From positions 1-41,217 of the forward strand of contig JASHOR010000026.1 in NCBI GenBank assembly GCA_030041005.1: a DNA stretch of 41,217 nucleotides. Direction: 5' to 3'. The translations under genes were made by a program, and so were the position numbers. This document shows, one piece after another, positions 2,707 to 40,102 of the stretch (position 1 is the stretch's first letter; the number at the start of each line of letters is the position of its first letter). This DNA is from Xanthobacteraceae bacterium. Lineage in GTDB: Bacteria > Pseudomonadota > Alphaproteobacteria > Rhizobiales > Xanthobacteraceae. Below the pieces are notes generated by a model, which was given only the letters and a program-made list of their open reading frames with translations, was not told the DNA's origin and made no database searches.

Positions 2707-2871
2707 CTAGTGTCCCGATTCCGAAGTTCGCATGATTATGCGGCACCCTCGTTTGCGAACTTCGGAATCGAAGGACACTAGCAACTTATTGACCTAGTGT
2801 GGCTTTGGTTCAGAACTCCGCATGACGAGGTCGCGGCAGGAATGATGCGGACTTCTGAACCGCCAGACTAG
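2707..2871 (+). repeat. Paired-hairpin repeat, copy A
   Basis: One of three copies of a 165-bp element in this window. Hairpin 1 (2707-2781) has CTAG at both ends and two perfect stem blocks of 9 and 17 bp separated by an AA bulge, with a 21-base loop. A 12-base linker follows. Hairpin 2 (2794-2871) also has CTAG ends, stem blocks of about 10, 9 and 7 bp with small internal loops, and again a 21-base loop. The two hairpins are related to each other in inverted orientation. This copy lies between the divergent rsmI and lipoprotein genes, with hairpin 1 next to rsmI. Confidence 0.92.
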
Positions 2872-3003: not shown

Positions 3004-4242
3004 GTGTCGGCTGAATTGCAGGATCAGGCGCCCGCCTCCGCGCTAACACGGCGGCAGGCTCTCGCAGGCGTGCTGTCAGGCGCGACTGCCTTGCTGGGCG
3101 GATGTTCGAGCAATTCCAGCTTTTTCTCCAGCAGCTTCTTCTCGAGCACGCCGCAGGCTCCGGCAAATGCTCCGGTTCCGCCGGCCGTGACGATCGGGAC
3201 GGGTCAGGTCAAGGTTGGGCTTATTCTGCCATTGACGGCCGGTGGAAACGCAGGTTTGGCCGGTCAGGCGATGCGCAACGCGGCCGACATGGCCGTGGCG
3301 GAATTTACCGCTCCCAACATCCAGGTCCTGGTGGAGGACGATGGCGGTAACGCCGACGCGGCCGGACGTGTCGCCCAGCAAGCGCTCGATCAAGGTGCCA
3401 CGATCATCCTGGGACCGCTGTTCGCCCAATCGGTCAGTGCAGTCGGGCAGATCACGCGACCACACAATATCCCGGTGATCGCGTTTTCGACCGATGCCAA
3501 CGTGGCCTCGCCAGGGGTCTACCTGCTGAGTTTTTTGCCGGAATCGGACGTGCAACGGATCGTCCAGTACGCGACGTCGGTTGGAAAGCGCTCCTATGCG
3601 GCGTTGATACCACAAAATCCGTACGGCTCGGTCGTCGAAGCCGCATTCCGGCAGGAGGTTGCGCGCCACGGCGGCCAGATCGTCGCTATCGAACACTATC
3701 CGCATGATCAGGCCGGCATGGCCGGCCCCGTGAGGGCGATTGCTCAATCAGCAGCCCGGGCCGATGCGCTGTTCATCCCCGATGGCGGCGACGCGGTACC
3801 CGGCATTGTGCAGATGCTCGTGACCGATGGTCTCAACCCAAGAAGAATCCAGCTTCTGGGTACCGGGCTTTGGGACGATCCGCGCATCTATGCCACTGCG
3901 GCGCTCGACGGCGGCTGGTATGCCGCGCCCGATGCGGCCGGCTATCGCGCTTTTTCCGATCGCTATCGTGCTCGCTTTCACCAGGACCCGGTGCGCACGG
4001 CAACGCTTGCCTATGACGCGGTGGCTTTGGTCGCGGCCCTGGTGAAGACGCAGCCTGATCCTCAGGTGCGATTCTCTCCGCAAATTCTCACCAACCCCTC
4101 GGGCTTTACCGGCATCGACGGCTTGTTCCGCTTCCTTCCCAATGGCACCAATCAGCGTGGGCTTGCGGTCCTGCGCAGCACGCGCGGGGGTCCCCGGACC
4201 ATTTCGCCCGCGCCCCACAGTTTCGCAACGTCGGGAATTTAG
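3004..4242 (+). CDS. Penicillin-binding protein activator-like lipoprotein (LpoA/LppC-type)
   Basis: A predicted lipoprotein of 412 residues with a periplasmic-binding-protein fold. Members of the LpoA/LppC group stimulate a bifunctional penicillin-binding protein in gammaproteobacteria; in alphaproteobacteria the partner is not established. The start is set at GTG 3004, preceded by a GAGGG motif; the frame is open back to a TTG at 2953 without a ribosome site. The N terminus has twin Arg, a hydrophobic stretch and a lipobox LGGC, placing the lipidated Cys near residue 34. A Ser/Phe/Pro/Ala-rich linker follows, then the binding domain from VKVGLILPLTA to the C terminus, including IILGPLFAQSV and NIPVIAFSTD. 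Its divergent position next to rsmI is typical of alphaproteobacteria. Confidence 0.85.
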   Translation: MSAELQDQAPASALTRRQALAGVLSGATALLGGCSSNSSFFSSSFFSSTPQAPANAPVPPAVTIGTGQVKVGLILPLTAGGNAGLAGQAMRNAADMAVAEFTAPNIQVLVEDDGGNADAAGRVAQQALDQGATIILGPLFAQSVSAVGQITRPHNIPVIAFSTDANVASPGVYLLSFLPESDVQRIVQYATSVGKRSYAALIPQNPYGSVVEAAFRQEVARHGGQIVAIEHYPHDQAGMAGPVRAIAQSAARADALFIPDGGDAVPGIVQMLVTDGLNPRRIQLLGTGLWDDPRIYATAALDGGWYAAPDAAGYRAFSDRYRARFHQDPVRTATLAYDAVALVAALVKTQPDPQVRFSPQILTNPSGFTGIDGLFRFLPNGTNQRGLAVLRSTRGGPRTISPAPHSFATSGI

Positions 4243-11832: not shown

Positions 11833-12518
11833 TCTGCAAAATCTCCGGGGCACTCCGAAACGGACGCCTGCTCGATAGGGCTGCGGGTAACTCGTCGCAG
11901 CGTCAAATTGATCCGGCCGCCTTCCGCCAGCAAGGTCGATGTGCCCGGATAGATACGGTCGACGCCATGAAAGGCGAGCCGCTCGTTGCCGGCAAGGACC
12001 AGCGCGTCGCCCGAACTCAATCGAAGCGATCGGGTGGGATCGCTGCGCTTGTGGCCGCCGATACGAAACAAACAGGCGTCGCCCAACGACAGCGAGACCA
12101 CGGGCGCATTGAAATCCTCTTCATCGCGATCCTGATGCAGGCCCATTTTTGCCGCCGGACCATAGAAATTGATCAGACATGCCTGCGGTTTGCAGGCGTA
12201 GTCGGCGAGATCATCCCACATCGCGAGCAGCGCCGCCGGCATTGGCGGCCAAGGTCGGCCGGTGACGGGATGCGTCGGTGTGTAGCGGTAGCCGGTTTCA
12301 TCCGAAATCCAGCCGAGCGGGCCGCAATTGGACATGCGTACCGACATCGGCCGGCCCGATTTCGGCATCCGCGGCGTGAACAGCGGAGCCTCGAGCAACA
12401 CCTGTCGCAGGGCCGCGACAAGGTCCCGTTGCTGGCTCGAACCGAGGTAGCCCGGATGAAGCAAAGGGCTGGACTTATTTGTAGAATCCGCCCCGATTGG
12501 AGCTTTCACCGTCATCAT
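11829..12518 (-). CDS. alkB: AlkB-type 2-oxoglutarate/Fe(II) dioxygenase, DNA repair
   Basis: AlkB directly reverses alkylation such as 1-methyladenine and 3-methylcytosine in DNA and RNA by oxidative demethylation, using Fe(II), 2-oxoglutarate and oxygen. The 229-residue product has all expected ligands: iron-binding His128 and Asp130 in GLHQDRDE, distal His184 in AFHGVDR, and 2-oxoglutarate-binding Arg202 and Arg208 in RINLTLRR. The substrate-recognition part contains SNCGPLGWISDETGYRY. It ends in an ATGA overlap with the exported-protein gene. A second alkylation-repair gene, an Ogt/Ada-type methyltransferase, is at 26582-27484 but in a different transcription unit. No Ada operator can be identified. 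Confidence 0.93.
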   Translation of the reverse strand: MMTVKAPIGADSTNKSSPLLHPGYLGSSQQRDLVAALRQVLLEAPLFTPRMPKSGRPMSVRMSNCGPLGWISDETGYRYTPTHPVTGRPWPPMPAALLAMWDDLADYACKPQACLINFYGPAAKMGLHQDRDEEDFNAPVVSLSLGDACLFRIGGHKRSDPTRSLRLSSGDALVLAGNERLAFHGVDRIYPGTSTLLAEGGRINLTLRRVTRSPIEQASVSECPGDFAE

Positions 12519-12730
12519 TCTTCGGTCATTTCGGGGTTCCGCAGCAACTGCGCGTTAAGCGGGGCGCCCCTATGTTTAGCCCCGGCTTGGCGGCGACGCA
12601 TGCTCCATCTCATCACTTTTGTTTGCGGCACCAATATGCTGAGGGTTTATCGCGACGGCGACGTGGGTCGAACTGCCGTTCGGTGTCTTCGCGACGCGGG
12701 GAAGCTGTCGGCGGGCCAGGCGGTGTCGCC

Positions 12731-14296
12731 ATGAGCATCGTTGCCGGCCAGGCTACTGATAGCATCCGCGCGACGTCGATCCGTCGCGACGATCTGTTTC
12801 GGGCGTGGTTGCCGCTCGGCTTGATCCTCGGTCTCGCCTTTGTGGTTCGACACTTTGTCGTCGCCAATACCGATGTAAGTTGGGAGATTACGCTGTCTGA
12901 GAAAATTCTCGATGGACAGCGTATGTACATCGACTTCATCGAGGTCAATCCACCGGCCTCAGTCTTCCTCTATCTGCCGGCGGTCGCGTTGGCGCGCCTG
13001 TTCGGCTGGTCGCCGGAATTCGTTGTCGACGCGATGGTATTCGTCGCTGCGCTCGGCAGCCTTGGTATAGTTGCCGATATCGTGCGCCGTTACCGGCTGC
13101 TCGACGACCTCGACGGACGTGCGGCCGCCGGCTTCGCGCTGGCGGTGCTGACAATCTTGCCGGCTCAGACCTTCGCCGAACGCGAGCACATCGCCTTGAT
13201 TGCAGTGCTGCCGGTCCTTGGCACCCTTGTTGCGCGCGCCAAAGGTGCCCGACCATTGCTGTGGCACTGTCTCGTCGCCGGCGCCGGCGCCGGCGTGACG
13301 GTCTGCATCAAGCCGCACTTTGCGCTCGCCGTTGGCTTCGCCGCTGCTGTGGCCGCATGGCATGCCCGCTCATGGCGCACGCTGCTCGCCCTGGAGAATT
13401 GGATCGCGGGAGGAATCGCCGTCATTTACGGCGTCTGTGTCCTTATTTTTTATCCCGCCTTTATTGCCAGTGTAATGCCGATCGTTGGCGATCTCTATCT
13501 GCCGGTCCGCATCCCGTTCGTGCAGATTCTGATCAGCACGCCAATGGTGCTCTGGGTCGGCGCTGTTCTGGTTGTCCTGGGCTTGTGTCGTCATATCGGC
13601 CGGTCGCCGGAAGTGTTGTTGCCACTCATGGCGTCAGCCGGGTTTGCCGTCGCCTATCTCGTTCAGGGCAAGGGCTGGCCGTATCAGTCTTACCCGATGC
13701 TTGCGTTGGGACTGATTGCGCTCGATTTAGCCGGCGCTGTTTGTCGCAGAGAGGCGGAGCGCATGGGCAAACGCGATCGCGGCCGGAATGCCTGCACAAC
13801 GCTTGCACTCGTCTTCATCGCCGTTTGGTCGTTCGCTTGGCTCAATGTCGCTGTCGATACCCGATCTCTCACTGCGCTCGTCGAGCGCGTCGCGCCACCG
13901 CACCCTTCAATCGTCATGGTCTCGGACGACATTGCGGTCGGCCACCCTTTGACTCGGGAGGTTCGTGGGCGGTGGCTGCCGCGCTACATGAGCCTGTGGA
14001 TCATCCAGAACGCGTCAGTTCTGCGCGCCGCCCGCGACCTCGATGATTCGGCGGCGCGGCGGATTTCAGCCGATGTGCGTGCGGTGCGGCAGGAGCTGAC
14101 CCGCGAAATTCGCGATGGCAAGCCAGACGTGATCCTGGTCGACGATCGCCCCGGCCGGATCCTTGTGGGCAATCGTCTCACGTCCTGGAATGCGTGGCTC
14201 AACGCCGATCCCGAACTGTCCGCACTGCTCGCCGGTGGCTACAGCAATGCCGGTATCGCTGACGGTGTCTCTGTATTCAAACGCAACGCGCGCTAA
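12731..14296 (+). CDS. Polytopic membrane protein, GT-C glycosyltransferase-like
   Basis: A 521-residue integral membrane protein with a first membrane segment at about residues 27-45, then a periplasmic loop NTDVSWEITLSEKILDG and MYIDFIEVNPP. This order (Asp-containing loop, then a Y-x-D-F-x-E-x-N-P-P motif) is typical of GT-C, PMT/ArnT-like transferases that use lipid-phosphate sugar donors. About ten further hydrophobic segments follow, and the last 110 residues form a soluble domain with VMVSDDIAVGHP and DVILVDDRPG. The donor and acceptor are unknown. The ATG at 12731 is chosen over a frame open to 12497. It is followed 48 bases later by a second GT-C-type gene, so the two may act together on an envelope polysaccharide or lipid. 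Confidence 0.78.
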   Translation: MSIVAGQATDSIRATSIRRDDLFRAWLPLGLILGLAFVVRHFVVANTDVSWEITLSEKILDGQRMYIDFIEVNPPASVFLYLPAVALARLFGWSPEFVVDAMVFVAALGSLGIVADIVRRYRLLDDLDGRAAAGFALAVLTILPAQTFAEREHIALIAVLPVLGTLVARAKGARPLLWHCLVAGAGAGVTVCIKPHFALAVGFAAAVAAWHARSWRTLLALENWIAGGIAVIYGVCVLIFYPAFIASVMPIVGDLYLPVRIPFVQILISTPMVLWVGAVLVVLGLCRHIGRSPEVLLPLMASAGFAVAYLVQGKGWPYQSYPMLALGLIALDLAGAVCRREAERMGKRDRGRNACTTLALVFIAVWSFAWLNVAVDTRSLTALVERVAPPHPSIVMVSDDIAVGHPLTREVRGRWLPRYMSLWIIQNASVLRAARDLDDSAARRISADVRAVRQELTREIRDGKPDVILVDDRPGRILVGNRLTSWNAWLNADPELSALLAGGYSNAGIADGVSVFKRNAR

Positions 14297-14344
14297 AACC
14301 ACTTTTTCACGGGGTCTTTACCACTGCCGAGCAAGCATGCCGGC

Positions 14345-15658
14345 ATGCATCAGCCCGTCGGCCAAGTTGCCCTCGGCGGCGGAACGTCCGCTTCCGAGCA
14401 ACTCTACGCCAAGCTCACCGTTGCGGCCGGCGTCTTCTTCGTCGTCCTCGAGCTGTCATATTTTCTGATCGCCGGCTTACACGCCCGCGGTGGTTTCCCG
14501 GTGGACGGTTTTCATGCCGCGATCGGTCGCGACTTCCTCAATACCTGGATGGGGGCCGGCTCGGCATTTTCCGGCGGGCCCGAACCGTGGTTCGACTTCC
14601 GAACCTACAACGCGGCGATCGAACGGATCACCGGTCATCCGGACTTTCCGGACATGTTCTGGTCGTATCCGCCGCATCTCATCCTCTTCATCTGGCCGCT
14701 TGGATTTTTGTCCTATCTTCCTGCCTATGCCGTGTGGTGCCTGGCGGGGCTTGCGCTTTACCTGTTGGCATCCTGGTCGGGCGGCTTGGGCCGTACGCAT
14801 GTGCTGTTCCTGGCGGTTGCGCCGGCCGTCGCAGTCAACGTGTTCTTTGGGCAGAATGGATTTCTGACCGCCGCCCTGCTCATCGGCGGCCTGGCCAATC
14901 TTGACCGCCGGCCGATTTTATCCGGAATCCTGTTCGGCATCCTCACCATCAAGCCCCAATTCGGCCTGCTGCTCCCGATCATGCTGATGCTGACGTCGCG
15001 CTGGCGCATCATCGTCGCCGCGGTCGCGACCACGGTGGCCCTTGTCGCCGCGACGTCGATCTGGTTCGGGCCGGGGGTTTGGCTCGACTATGTGTCCAAG
15101 GTGGGTCCGCAGCAGCATTGGCTGTTGACCAACGGCGGCGGGCTACTGGTGCCGATGGTGGCTTCCGCGTTCGTCAACGGCCGCATGGTCGGGCTGCCGC
15201 TTGCCGCCGATTGGGCGCTCCAGGCCATCGTCTCGATCGGCGCCCTGGCGATGGTGATCTGGACGTTCTGGCGGCCGCGCGATCCGGTCCTGTCGCTCGC
15301 GCTGTTCGTCACCGCGACGTTCCTGTTCTCGCCATGGATGCTTAATTACGACATGGTGGTGTTCGGCTTCATCGTGGCGCTATTGCGGGAGCGGTCCGAC
15401 AATACGGCGACCGACGATCGGCTGATGATCGCAGTGTGGGTGCTCCCGGTGGCGATGCTCTTGTTCGGAGCGGCGCGCATCCCGATTGCGATGATCGTGC
15501 TGCCGGCGTTCGCCGGGCGGCTCGTGTGGCGGCTCTGGCACGAGCAGCGGTGGCCGATTGCGGGTGACGCGGCGGCCGGCGGCGCGCTTACGGTCGGTAC
15601 GGCGGCTTTGATTCCCAATAGCGGTCGCATGGGGCAATCCTGTCTTGCGGGGCGATGA
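14345..15658 (+). CDS. DUF2029 / GT87-family membrane glycosyltransferase-like protein
   Basis: This 437-residue protein has about ten membrane segments and resembles the DUF2029 (GT87) family, known from mycobacterial mannosyltransferases that use polyprenyl-phosphate mannose. After the first membrane segment (residues 22-45) comes a loop with GRDFLNTWMGAGSAF, where the Asp fits the expected catalytic or metal position. FWSYPPHLILFIWPLGFL, FGQNGFLTAALLIGG and GILTIKPQFGLLLP follow, the last two being typical family motifs. No clear ribosome site precedes the ATG. Its 3' end contains the -35 element of the dnaK promoter. The sugar and acceptor cannot be told from sequence. Confidence 0.85.
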   Translation: MHQPVGQVALGGGTSASEQLYAKLTVAAGVFFVVLELSYFLIAGLHARGGFPVDGFHAAIGRDFLNTWMGAGSAFSGGPEPWFDFRTYNAAIERITGHPDFPDMFWSYPPHLILFIWPLGFLSYLPAYAVWCLAGLALYLLASWSGGLGRTHVLFLAVAPAVAVNVFFGQNGFLTAALLIGGLANLDRRPILSGILFGILTIKPQFGLLLPIMLMLTSRWRIIVAAVATTVALVAATSIWFGPGVWLDYVSKVGPQQHWLLTNGGGLLVPMVASAFVNGRMVGLPLAADWALQAIVSIGALAMVIWTFWRPRDPVLSLALFVTATFLFSPWMLNYDMVVFGFIVALLRERSDNTATDDRLMIAVWVLPVAMLLFGAARIPIAMIVLPAFAGRLVWRLWHEQRWPIAGDAAAGGALTVGTAALIPNSGRMGQSCLAGR

Positions 15659-15671
15659 CGCTCTCCTATAT
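15644..15671 (+). promoter_or_regulatory. RpoH (sigma-32) type promoter of dnaK
   Basis: CTTG (15644-15647) is separated by 17 bases from CCTATAT (15665-15671), a close match to the alphaproteobacterial heat-shock consensus CTTG-N17/18-CYTATNT. The -35 lies within the last codons of the preceding membrane-protein gene. The resulting 5' leader of about 110 bases ends with AGAGAGAGGA before the dnaK ATG. No CIRCE is present, so RpoH rather than HrcA control is inferred. Confidence 0.78.
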
Positions 15672-15786
15672 GAGCCAAGGGTAATCGCCCGGGTTCTACC
15701 GGGCGGTGGAAAGACTATACGGGGGTCGGACTGAAGGGCGCCTTTAGGGCCTGCCCGACCTGCCTAGAGAGAGAGGATTAACAACC

Positions 15787-17709
<1,923 letters not shown>

Positions 17710-17710
17710 T

Positions 17711-17794
17711 GCGCGGGTACCTTATGTTCGGGCTACCCGTGCGGTTCTCCTCCCTCGTTGAGGGGACGGTGAAGCGCAAAGCGTACGGGAGGAG
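17711..17794 (+). promoter_or_regulatory. Hairpins in the dnaK-dnaJ spacer
   Basis: Directly after the dnaK stop, GCGCGGGTA (17711-17719) pairs with TACCCGTGC (17734-17742) over 9 bp including one G-U. A second structure follows: CTCCTCCC (17747-17754) pairs with GGGAGGAG (17787-17794), enclosing a small CCCTC-GTT-GAGGG hairpin. There is no U run. Such structures could cause partial termination or mRNA processing, lowering dnaJ relative to dnaK; this is inference. Confidence 0.4.
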
Positions 17795-17930
17795 GTGGTG
17801 AGACGCGTCGCGCAGATTGCGCTCTTCGCTGTTGTAGCCCCCTTCCTGGCCTTTGCCCTTAAGAGCGGAGGGGATGTAATTTGCAAGCGTCGAAACCATT
17901 CCCACATTTCTCTTGGTTAGAGATTCGGCA

Positions 17931-19076
17931 ATGGCCAAGCGCTGCTATTACGACGTGCTTTCGGTTGAGCGAACCGCGAGCGAAACCAACATAAAAGCCG
18001 CCTTTCGCAAACAGGCCATGGCGTGCCATCCGGATCGCAATCCCGGGGACAAGGACGCCGAGCATCGCTTCAAGGAAATCAACGAAGCCTACGAAATCCT
18101 CAAGGACCCGAACAAGCGCGCGGCTTACGATCGATTTGGTCACGCTGCGTTCGAGCATGGCATGGGCGGCGGCCCCGCGGCCGGTTTCGGTGCGGACTTT
18201 GCCACGACCTTTTCCGATATTTTCGACGATCTGTTCGGCATGGGTGGACGGCGCGGCCGCGGCTCCGGCCGCGAGCGCGGCGCTGACCTTCGCTACAACA
18301 TGGAGATCGGGCTGCAGGAAGCCTTTTCCGGCAAGACCGCGCAAATCCGCATTCCGACGTCCGTTACTTGCGAAGCCTGCTCCGGATCAGGTGCCAAATC
18401 CGGGACCAAGCCGAAGACCTGTCCGATGTGCGGGGGCCAGGGCAAGGTGCGCCACGCCCAGGGGCTCTTCACGCTGGAGCGCACCTGCCCGAATTGCCAG
18501 GGGCGCGGTCAGGTGATCGATAGTCCATGCAGCTCGTGCGCGGGCTCTGGCCGCGTCACCCGCGAGCGCACGCTGTCGGTGAATATTCCGTCCGGCGTCG
18601 AGGACGGCACCCGCATCCGGCTCGCCGGCGAAGGCGAAGCCGGCCTGCGCGGCGGCCCGGCGGGCGATCTCTATATTTTTCTCTCCATCGCCGCTCATCC
18701 GTTCTTTCAGTGCGAAGGCGCGGACCTGCATTGCCGCGTGCCGGTCTCGATGGTGACGGCGGCGATCGGCGGCGAATTCGAGGTCCCCACAATTGATGGC
18801 GGCAAAACGCGCGTGAAGGTGCCGGAAGGGACCCAATCAGGCCGCCGCTTCCGCTTGCCCGGTAAGGGCATGCCGGTACTGCGTTCGCGGCAGAGTGGCG
18901 ACATGTACGTGCAGGTCGTCGTCGAGACGCCGCAGAACCTGACAAAAAGGCAGCGCGAGTTGCTCCAGGAATTCGAGCGGCTGTCATCCAGCGATACGCA
19001 TCCCGAGTCCGCAGGTTTTTTCGGCAAGGTCAAGGAATTTCTCGATGGCCTCGGCGGCCGTGCGAGTTCCGCGTGA
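17931..19076 (+). CDS. dnaJ: Chaperone DnaJ (Hsp40)
   Basis: DnaJ delivers substrates to DnaK and stimulates its ATPase. The 381-residue product has all classical parts: the J domain with HPD in [11 protein letters not shown], a Gly/Phe-rich region (about residues 75-115), and a zinc-binding region with four CxxCxGxG-type motifs ([32 protein letters not shown]). The C-terminal substrate domain contains [23 protein letters not shown]. The ATG at 17931 ([10 protein letters not shown]) matches the family; a TTG at 17913 is in frame but adds nothing conserved. It follows dnaK after a structured spacer and probably shares its heat-shock control. Confidence 0.98.
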
Positions 19077-32265: not shown

Positions 32266-32429
32266 CTAGTGTGGCGGTTCAAAAGTCCGCATCATTCCTG
32301 CCGCGACCTCGTCATGCGGATTTCTGAACCAAAGCCACACGAGATCAATAAGTTGCGAGTGCCCTTCGATTCCGAAGTCGCAAACGAGGGTGCCGCATAA
32401 TGATGCGAATTTCGGAATCGGGACACTAG
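32266..32429 (-). repeat. Paired-hairpin repeat, copy B
   Basis: Reverse-oriented copy of the 165-bp element (164 bp here; one base is missing in hairpin 1). Hairpin 2 is 32266-32343 and hairpin 1 is 32356-32429. The outer ends keep CTAG, while the two inner ends have changed to CGAG. Hairpin 1 faces the UbiD gene, ending 40 bases before its ATG; hairpin 2 faces the MDR reductase gene. The two loops keep their complementary six bases (CCTCGT and ACGAGG). Confidence 0.92.
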
Positions 32430-39937: not shown

Positions 39938-40102
39938 CTAGTGTCCCGCTTCCGAAGTTCGCATGATTATGCTGCACCCTCGTTTGCGAATTTCGGAATC
40001 GAAGGACACTAGCAACTTATTGATCTCGTGCGGCTTTGGTTCAGAAATCCGCACGACGAGGTGATGGCAGGAATGATGCGGACTTCTGAACCGCCACACT
40101 AG
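39938..40102 (+). repeat. Paired-hairpin repeat, copy C
   Basis: Third copy of the 165-bp element, in the same orientation as copy A. Hairpin 1 is 39938-40012 (75 bp) with CTAG at both ends; hairpin 2 is 40025-40102 (78 bp), whose inner end has drifted to CTCG. It separates the divergent zur-like and hydroxybutyrate dehydrogenase genes; hairpin 1 abuts the zur-like ATG, and hairpin 2 lies about 160 bases before the dehydrogenase. Confidence 0.92.

Follow-up and report, generated by a model that had tools for sequence, protein, structure and literature searches.

A paired-hairpin intergenic repeat of a Xanthobacteraceae genome, probably a foldback MITE of IS630 type

What kind of element is the 165-bp pair of hairpins that stands three times, nearly unchanged, in a single contig of a Xanthobacteraceae bacterium, and how might it have spread? 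Here we analyse the 41,217 nucleotides of that contig (the window) together with the draft genome, its genus and its wider bacterial relatives, and we conclude, with a probability of roughly 0.8, that it is a MITE, a non-autonomous transposon, of IS630 (Tc1/mariner-like) kind.

The element, its copies and its range

An earlier note on this DNA had described three nearly identical copies, each with two hairpins, a 12-base linker and CTAG or near-CTAG ends, and both the sizes and the feet agree with what we find. The copies are 164-165 bp long and align end to end, copy 2 being one base shorter through one deletion; hairpin 1 measures 75 bp (74 in copy 2), the linker 12 bases and hairpin 2 78 bp. 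Their parts are as follows.

2707-2871, forward strand: copy 1, with hairpin 1 at 2707-2781, linker at 2782-2793 and hairpin 2 at 2794-2871; CTAG at all four feet
2783-2792, forward strand: linker core AACTTATTGA of copy 1
32266-32429, reverse strand: copy 2, with hairpin 2 at 32266-32343, linker at 32344-32355 and hairpin 1 at 32356-32429; both inner feet read CGAG on the forward strand
39938-40102, forward strand: copy 3, with hairpin 1 at 39938-40012, linker at 40013-40024 and hairpin 2 at 40025-40102; site empty in relatives
39938-39962, forward strand: outer arm of hairpin 1 in copy 3, proposed left transposon end, the family arm resembling an IS630 5′ end
40078-40102, reverse strand: outer arm of hairpin 2 in copy 3, proposed right transposon end, resembling an IS630 3′ end

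Copy 1 folds as RNA at -82.9 kcal/mol (z -8.8 against 200 dinucleotide shuffles), and copy 3 folds as DNA with a z of -5.6 against shuffles. No Rfam family reached its gathering score in the window, and a search of five element loci returned a single match, suhB in locus L113, lying away from the element. CTAG is rare in the window (positions 1-41217), with 17 occurrences observed against 33 expected from trinucleotides, and the feet of the element account for 9 of the 17. As a separate observation, the AT-skew at 12001-18000 takes values of -0.21, -0.20 and +0.17 in adjacent 2-kb bins.

The family is dispersed, as the earlier note had supposed, and further copies are plentiful: a 28-mer spanning the linker, with at most three mismatches, occurs at 119 places (63 + 56) in the 4.9-Mb draft genome, while the reversed control occurs at none. 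BLAST in the same genome gave at least 96 matches, with 40 of 208 candidates scored, and the full copies among those listed are 94-98% alike and stand at different sites. At 165 bp the element falls below the upper size of about 300 bp used for a MITE, and it is present in high copy and carries no transposase gene. None of 54 own-genome copies lies inside a called open reading frame in the calls of a crude GC3-based gene caller, by which flanking genes were called for 50 and no flanking gene was seen for 4. By the same crude caller the surrounding genes are tandem in 23 cases, convergent in 14 and divergent in 13, against 29, 15 and 14 for the gaps, with no bias of orientation.

Beyond this genome, matches at 1e-5 occur in 12 of the 20 genomes of the genus, its own included. 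The exact 24-base outer arm of hairpin 1 was found in at least 102 stretches of the genome collection; the 80 loci among the matches listed carry the labels Caulobacter, Phenylobacterium, Hyphomicrobium, Pseudolabrys, Rhodoplanes, Nitrobacter, Xanthobacteraceae, Hyphomicrobiales, Alphaproteobacteria and others. Relatives of the element thus labelled fall in the Caulobacterales and Hyphomicrobiales, with records that include Caulobacter ginsengisoli and Phenylobacterium, and the sole Acetobacteraceae record among the listed loci holds the arm with just a short degenerate hairpin. From these 80 loci 49 full two-hairpin elements were parsed (two of them counted on both strands); parsed elements are 163-171 bp in length. 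Among 72,556 plasmid records there was no match to copy 3 of the window, and a query with the copy of genome G017 gave 10 weak matches in Roseibium, Labrenzia and Ochrobactrum. In nine Roseibium and Labrenzia plasmid records a 167-bp relative, about 70% identical to the G017 copy, overlaps or adjoins an SDR oxidoreductase gene, and these nine records are perhaps one old insertion. No element match was found in the phages, and the arm occurs in 4 stretches of IMG/VR.

Transposon ends in the hairpin arms

All four arms of the element are related to one another, and the outer-arm consensus reads CTAGTGTCCCGATTCCGAAGTTCGC for hairpin 1 (family) and CTAGTGTGGCGGTTCAGAAGTCCGC for hairpin 2. When entire elements of relatives (L063-L065) are aligned with their reverse complements, they agree at 72-73% over 170 columns (E 2.6e-20), so that the inverted pairing of two related palindromes proposed in the earlier note holds. 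The note had gone further and derived the unit from inverted duplication of one ancestral palindrome; of this proposal the inverted arrangement and the relatedness stand, and for the origin we prefer two different transposon ends, each of which forms one hairpin with an inverted copy of itself.

A source for such ends is present in the genome itself. PF13358 has two matches there, one of which is a full-length IS630 (362 aa, NF033545 E 1.5e-80) and the other (L247) a contig-end fragment whose locus has no CTAGTGT end; a tblastn query with the own transposase brought no additional copy from the window or from loci with numbers below L246. The ends of the full-length IS630, CTAGTGTTCCGTCCCGGAAATTCGC and CTAGTGTTCCGTCCTGTAAGTTCG, carry CTAGTGT and GAA(A/G)TTCG or GTAAGTTCG, spaced as in the outer arms of the element, and at its 5′ end this IS630 has a CTAG in common with a directly adjoining solo hairpin 2. 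The outer arm of hairpin 1 agrees with its 3′ end at 15 of 21 bases and with its 5′ end at 13.

The closest correspondence at both ends is with an IS630 of G349, a genome of the same bacterial family, where five copies (L304 and L334-L337) share the same two ends in differing flanks, and where these ends are unlike each other, the 5′ end reading CTAGTGTCCCGAGTCACAAGTTCGC and the 3′ end CTAGTGTGGTGGACCAGAAGTTCGC. In the 21 positions that follow CTAG, the outer arm of hairpin 1 matches the 5′ end at 18 and the 3′ end at 14, and for hairpin 2 the matches to the 3′ and 5′ ends are 17 and 15 for the window arm, 18 and 14 for the own solo hairpin, 16 and 11 for G017, and 17 and 14 for the Caulobacterales. 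The five arm types compared thus all show one pattern, with hairpin 1 nearer to the 5′ end and hairpin 2 nearer to the 3′ end of the IS; between the window's element and the corresponding G349 ends the agreement is thus 18/21 and 17/21. The IS630 5′ ends of G034 and G073 also reach 18/21 with hairpin 1, a value reached by 0 of 20,000 shuffles, while the more distant IS630 of G087 provides a useful contrast, with 5-7 of 21 in the arms. No IS with ends identical to the arms of hairpin 1 or hairpin 2 was found, the best being the 18/21 in relatives. Matching two unlike ends of the element to two unlike ends of an IS630 is what gives us a concrete transposase candidate.

The spacing between foot and core is equally regular. 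Among 146 type-1 hairpins with both cores (49 from the own genome, 25 from the genus and 72 from elsewhere), both feet were recognised in 131, and in 126 of these the two distances are 10 and 12-15, with other values in 5; the outer distance was not preset in this count. The longer side is the inner arm in the 26 aligned elements. Of 107 elements whose hairpin 2 has a paired core, 106 have an inner spacing that exceeds the outer by 2 to 5 bases and one does not, in a set where L084, L130 and L143 are counted on both strands and where 24 type-1 hairpins have no recognised hairpin 2. One own-genome copy, L369 at 4073-4235, has a bulge-free hairpin 1 with both distances at 10 and so lends itself to a test of the spacing rule.

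The 26 aligned elements were selected by us from 67 listed elements and the window, and for 18 of them the pattern behind the selection prescribed the outer arm of hairpin 1. With that proviso, hairpin 1 varies hardly at all in the alignment, while in hairpin 2 the arm sequence varies and the pairing is preserved; compensatory changes occur in 17 of 50 pairs. Such covariation could come from selection on pairing, or from the way in which foldback ends are copied.

Insertion, movement and rival explanations

The insertion that produced copy 3 can be read from its relatives. In 15 relatives the element is absent from the orthologous intergenic region, and 13 of the 15 have TAG at the aligned place, beside the element's right end. 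Genome G006 reads CCTAGCC once where the window reads CCTAG, then the element, then CTAGCC, with a left flank that is barely alignable, and from this comparison of sequences we read that the insertion turned a single TA into two. Because the target is CTAG, duplication of TA and duplication of CTAG look the same here, and the doubled TA is seen at this one site; at a second site, on own contig C41, the element is absent in relatives and the junction is not alignable. Five arrays in the own genome repeat with a period of 161-162 bases, the length of a unit less the foot that neighbouring units share; insertion into a foot would leave such a period.

In the own genome the TA at the centre of the four CTAG feet is hypervariable: in 42 own copies parsed from the window and L001-L062, the mean minor frequency is 0.106 over the foot columns against 0.024 elsewhere. 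The variants are CTCG, CGAG, CTGG and CCAG, while the 49 parsed distant elements have CTAG nearly throughout. In L164, from a Nitrobacter metagenome-assembled genome, the inner foot of one element's hairpin 2 holds another repeat with CTAG ends, beginning CTAGAGCGTTTTCGAGCG; on the reverse strand it lies no more than about 260 bases past position 2639.

Some other IS630s also end at CTAG. In G061, G042 and G112 the IS ends were located at CTAG by comparison of copies, allowing one to six chance bases beyond, and six IS630 copies in G061 begin and end at CTAG; as read by eye from the flanks, a CTAG-footed hairpin follows directly after the IS copy in three of its loci (L280, L281 and L265) and 13 bases away in a fourth (L278). 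In three loci of G272 (L317, L342 and L343) the best inverted pair around the IS630 is instead a long repeat, CTAGAGCTTCGGTTCTGATTCAATCAGA, on both sides, and not CTAGTGT ends.

We propose that the outer left arm of the element is an IS630 5′ end and the outer right arm an IS630 3′ end, with an inverted copy of each end lying inward of it so that a hairpin can fold. An IS630 transposase made elsewhere would bind the core (of GATTCCGAAGTTCGC type), which in the outer arms lies 10 bases inward from their CTAG foot, would cut at these arms, and would insert the whole 165 bp at the TA within a CTAG, so duplicating the TA. The inner arms have 2-5 extra bases from foot to core; on our reading they would therefore be cut poorly, and the hairpins would stay joined as a pair. 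Insertion of the element, or of the IS, into the feet of older copies would give tandem arrays and IS-hairpin junctions. Mobilisation in trans by IS630, the role of the spacing and any role of the folded hairpin are parts of this model that we infer; the IS630 reading would explain the CTAG feet, the tandem arrays and the junctions alike.

Relatives of the own IS630 occur in 29 of 198 genomes of the bacterial family at 1e-40, and the Bradyrhizobium type in 45 of 391 genomes at 1e-100. The element-rich genomes G006, G007, G010, G017 and G019 have no match to the Bradyrhizobium type at 1e-100, and G007 and G010 none to the own IS630 at 1e-40, and therefore the active transposase may be another IS630 or may have been lost. 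Of 19 genomes chosen for IS630 or for the element, 12 match a window-type query (92 matches in G073, 60 in G145 and 41 in G061) and 7 have related IS630s and no such match; G349, whose IS fits best at both ends, has one partial match to that query (100 of 165 bases).

The earlier note had likened the unit to REP/BIME elements. On that view a RAYT, a Y1 tyrosine transposase that works on hairpins of single-stranded DNA, would move the pair, and the look of the element speaks for it, as the two inverted palindromes, asymmetric bulges and conserved feet are BIME-like and Y1 genes occur in some relatives. However, the presence of such genes does not track the element: PF01797 exceeds its cut-off in two of the seven element-rich genomes of the genus (not in the own genome), in none of the five with few matches and in five of the eight without any, and the own genome has one sub-threshold Y1 fragment of 36 positions that contains a stop. 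The feet, moreover, are CTAG and not GTAG, and TA stands on both sides of the insert and once in the empty site, an arrangement that we know of in no REP. We thus consider RAYT-driven movement very improbable, and the note's own alternative, a MITE with an IS630-like preference for TA or CTAG, is the reading favoured by the likeness of the ends, the spacing and the empty site. A MITE of another family with TA targets, such as IS5/IS427 with its YTAR sites, would share the TA, which in CTAG fits YTAR, and has a precedent in IS711 of Brucella, which inserts at YTAR and once within a Bru-RS1 palindrome (PMC3163539). Ends of the form CTAGTGT...GAAGTTCGC would then resemble IS630 by chance, and since end sequence, spacing and the asymmetry of 5′ and 3′ ends all fit IS630 ends, this family seems unlikely.

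Might the element instead be primarily a functional RNA, or a bidirectional terminator or attenuator, kept under selection after an old and passive spread? The strong fold, the compensatory changes in hairpin 2 and the intergenic placement would suit such a role. Against it stand the lack of orientation bias relative to genes (by the crude gene caller), the similarity of 94-98% among the listed full own copies in different sites, a site that is empty in relatives, and the lack of any Rfam family, and as a primary explanation it is quite improbable, although the element may have a secondary effect as RNA. Finally, spread by recombination or gene conversion between intergenic repeats, with no transposase at all, could produce tandem arrays with shared feet by unequal exchange. 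It leaves unexplained, however, both how the element entered a single TA at a place where relatives have no copy and why its ends are like those of IS630, and we give it hardly any credence. The IS630-type MITE therefore remains our preferred reading.

GANTC sites and known repeat systems

A GATTC lies in the stem of hairpin 1 and is invariant in the 26 aligned elements, of which 18 came from a pattern that contains it; copy 3 of the window reads GCTTC in its place. At positions 11-15 of IS630 ends, GANTC occurs in exactly one end in 11 of 16 IS630s with usable ends, in neither end in 5 and in both in 0, the 16 being taken from 30 loci after 14 were dropped (duplicate copy, partial gene, contig end or no accepted pair). 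One dropped locus, L272 of G111, has a perfect inverted pair with GAATC at positions 11-15 of both ends. In a set of 42 IS630 loci, many of them copies of one IS, GANTC is in the 5′ end only in 27, in the 3′ end only in 4 and in both in 0, with 11 having neither or no ends found. In most IS630s of the bacterial family with ends found, one end alone has GANTC, the 3′ end in some clades and the 5′ end in others.

Ten plasmid IS630 loci extend the comparison: GANTC is in both ends in Streptomyces and Rhodococcus and in one end in Bradyrhizobium (two loci) and Komagataeibacter, while Acidovorax and Janthinobacterium have GAGTT at both ends, Cupriavidus basilensis GTCCC and Rhodovastum GATCG, and the Cupriavidus necator locus gave no convincing ends. 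We know of no CcrM in Streptomyces or Rhodococcus. GANTC in the IS630 ends of these two genera undercuts selection through CcrM as the reason for the site, which can therefore be inherited and is no proof of methylation control; IS630 ends are a simple possible source of the site in the element. GcrA, a partner of CcrM, is encoded in 19 of the 20 genomes of the genus.

As a tentative and rather doubtful extension, all CIR-type repeats of Alphaproteobacteria may be IS630 foldback MITEs, with an IS end and a spacing-shifted inverted decoy in each hairpin; the decoys would prevent splitting, and GANTC in one end would let CcrM methylation tie transposition to replication. Dam methylation ties the transposition of IS10 and IS50 to replication. 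CIR1-4, the CcrM-associated intergenic repeats of Caulobacter, were reportedly described by Chen and Shapiro in 2003. According to a 2007 review, CIR repeats have two inverted-repeat arms, a linker, TA termini and GANTC, occur in Alphaproteobacteria including Caulobacter and are not intragenic; they are about 110 bp long with GANTC at the terminal loop, their target duplication is listed as '?', and their mobility is said to need more information (PMC2229807). A 2024 review of MITEs calls them strictly intergenic (PMC10969869). By these descriptions our element shares with CIR the two arms and linker, the TA ends, GANTC in one arm, the strictly intergenic placement and the bacterial class, and differs in its length of 163-171 bp, in having GATTC in the stem of hairpin 1 rather than in a loop, and in showing a doubled TA at one site.

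REP and BIME elements resemble it as high-copy pairs of inverted palindromes, whereas our element has no RAYT association, CTAG rather than GTAG feet, longer stems and TA on both sides. In place of a GTAG or CGTC tag at the stem foot, 46 of the 49 parsed distant elements have CTAG at each outer end, the parser having required CTAG-like feet. RIME of Sinorhizobium is a further palindromic intergenic repeat. The REP families of Bradyrhizobium carry GTAG or CGTC tags (PMC3733652), and the Br-REP1 consensus printed in another (PMC5082802) differs by eye from the arms of the element. Bru-RS1 of Brucella is a 103-bp palindromic intergenic repeat (PMC3163539), and by such descriptions Bru-RS1/2 and RIME are like our element in being palindromic, intergenic and found in the same bacterial class. 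The four arm strings had no occurrence in the literature searched, and a connection of IS630 with such paired-hairpin repeats was not found among the titles and abstract openings listed from the open-licence literature.

A further parallel is RUP of Streptococcus pneumoniae, which has ends like those of IS630-Spn1, inserts at TA and is listed with a 9-bp terminal inverted repeat (PMC2229807). Both are small intergenic repeats with IS630-like ends and insertion at TA, and they differ in that the ends of our element are folded back on long inverted copies whose inner spacing is different. The IS630 reading suggests how such repeats, widespread in related bacteria, may move.
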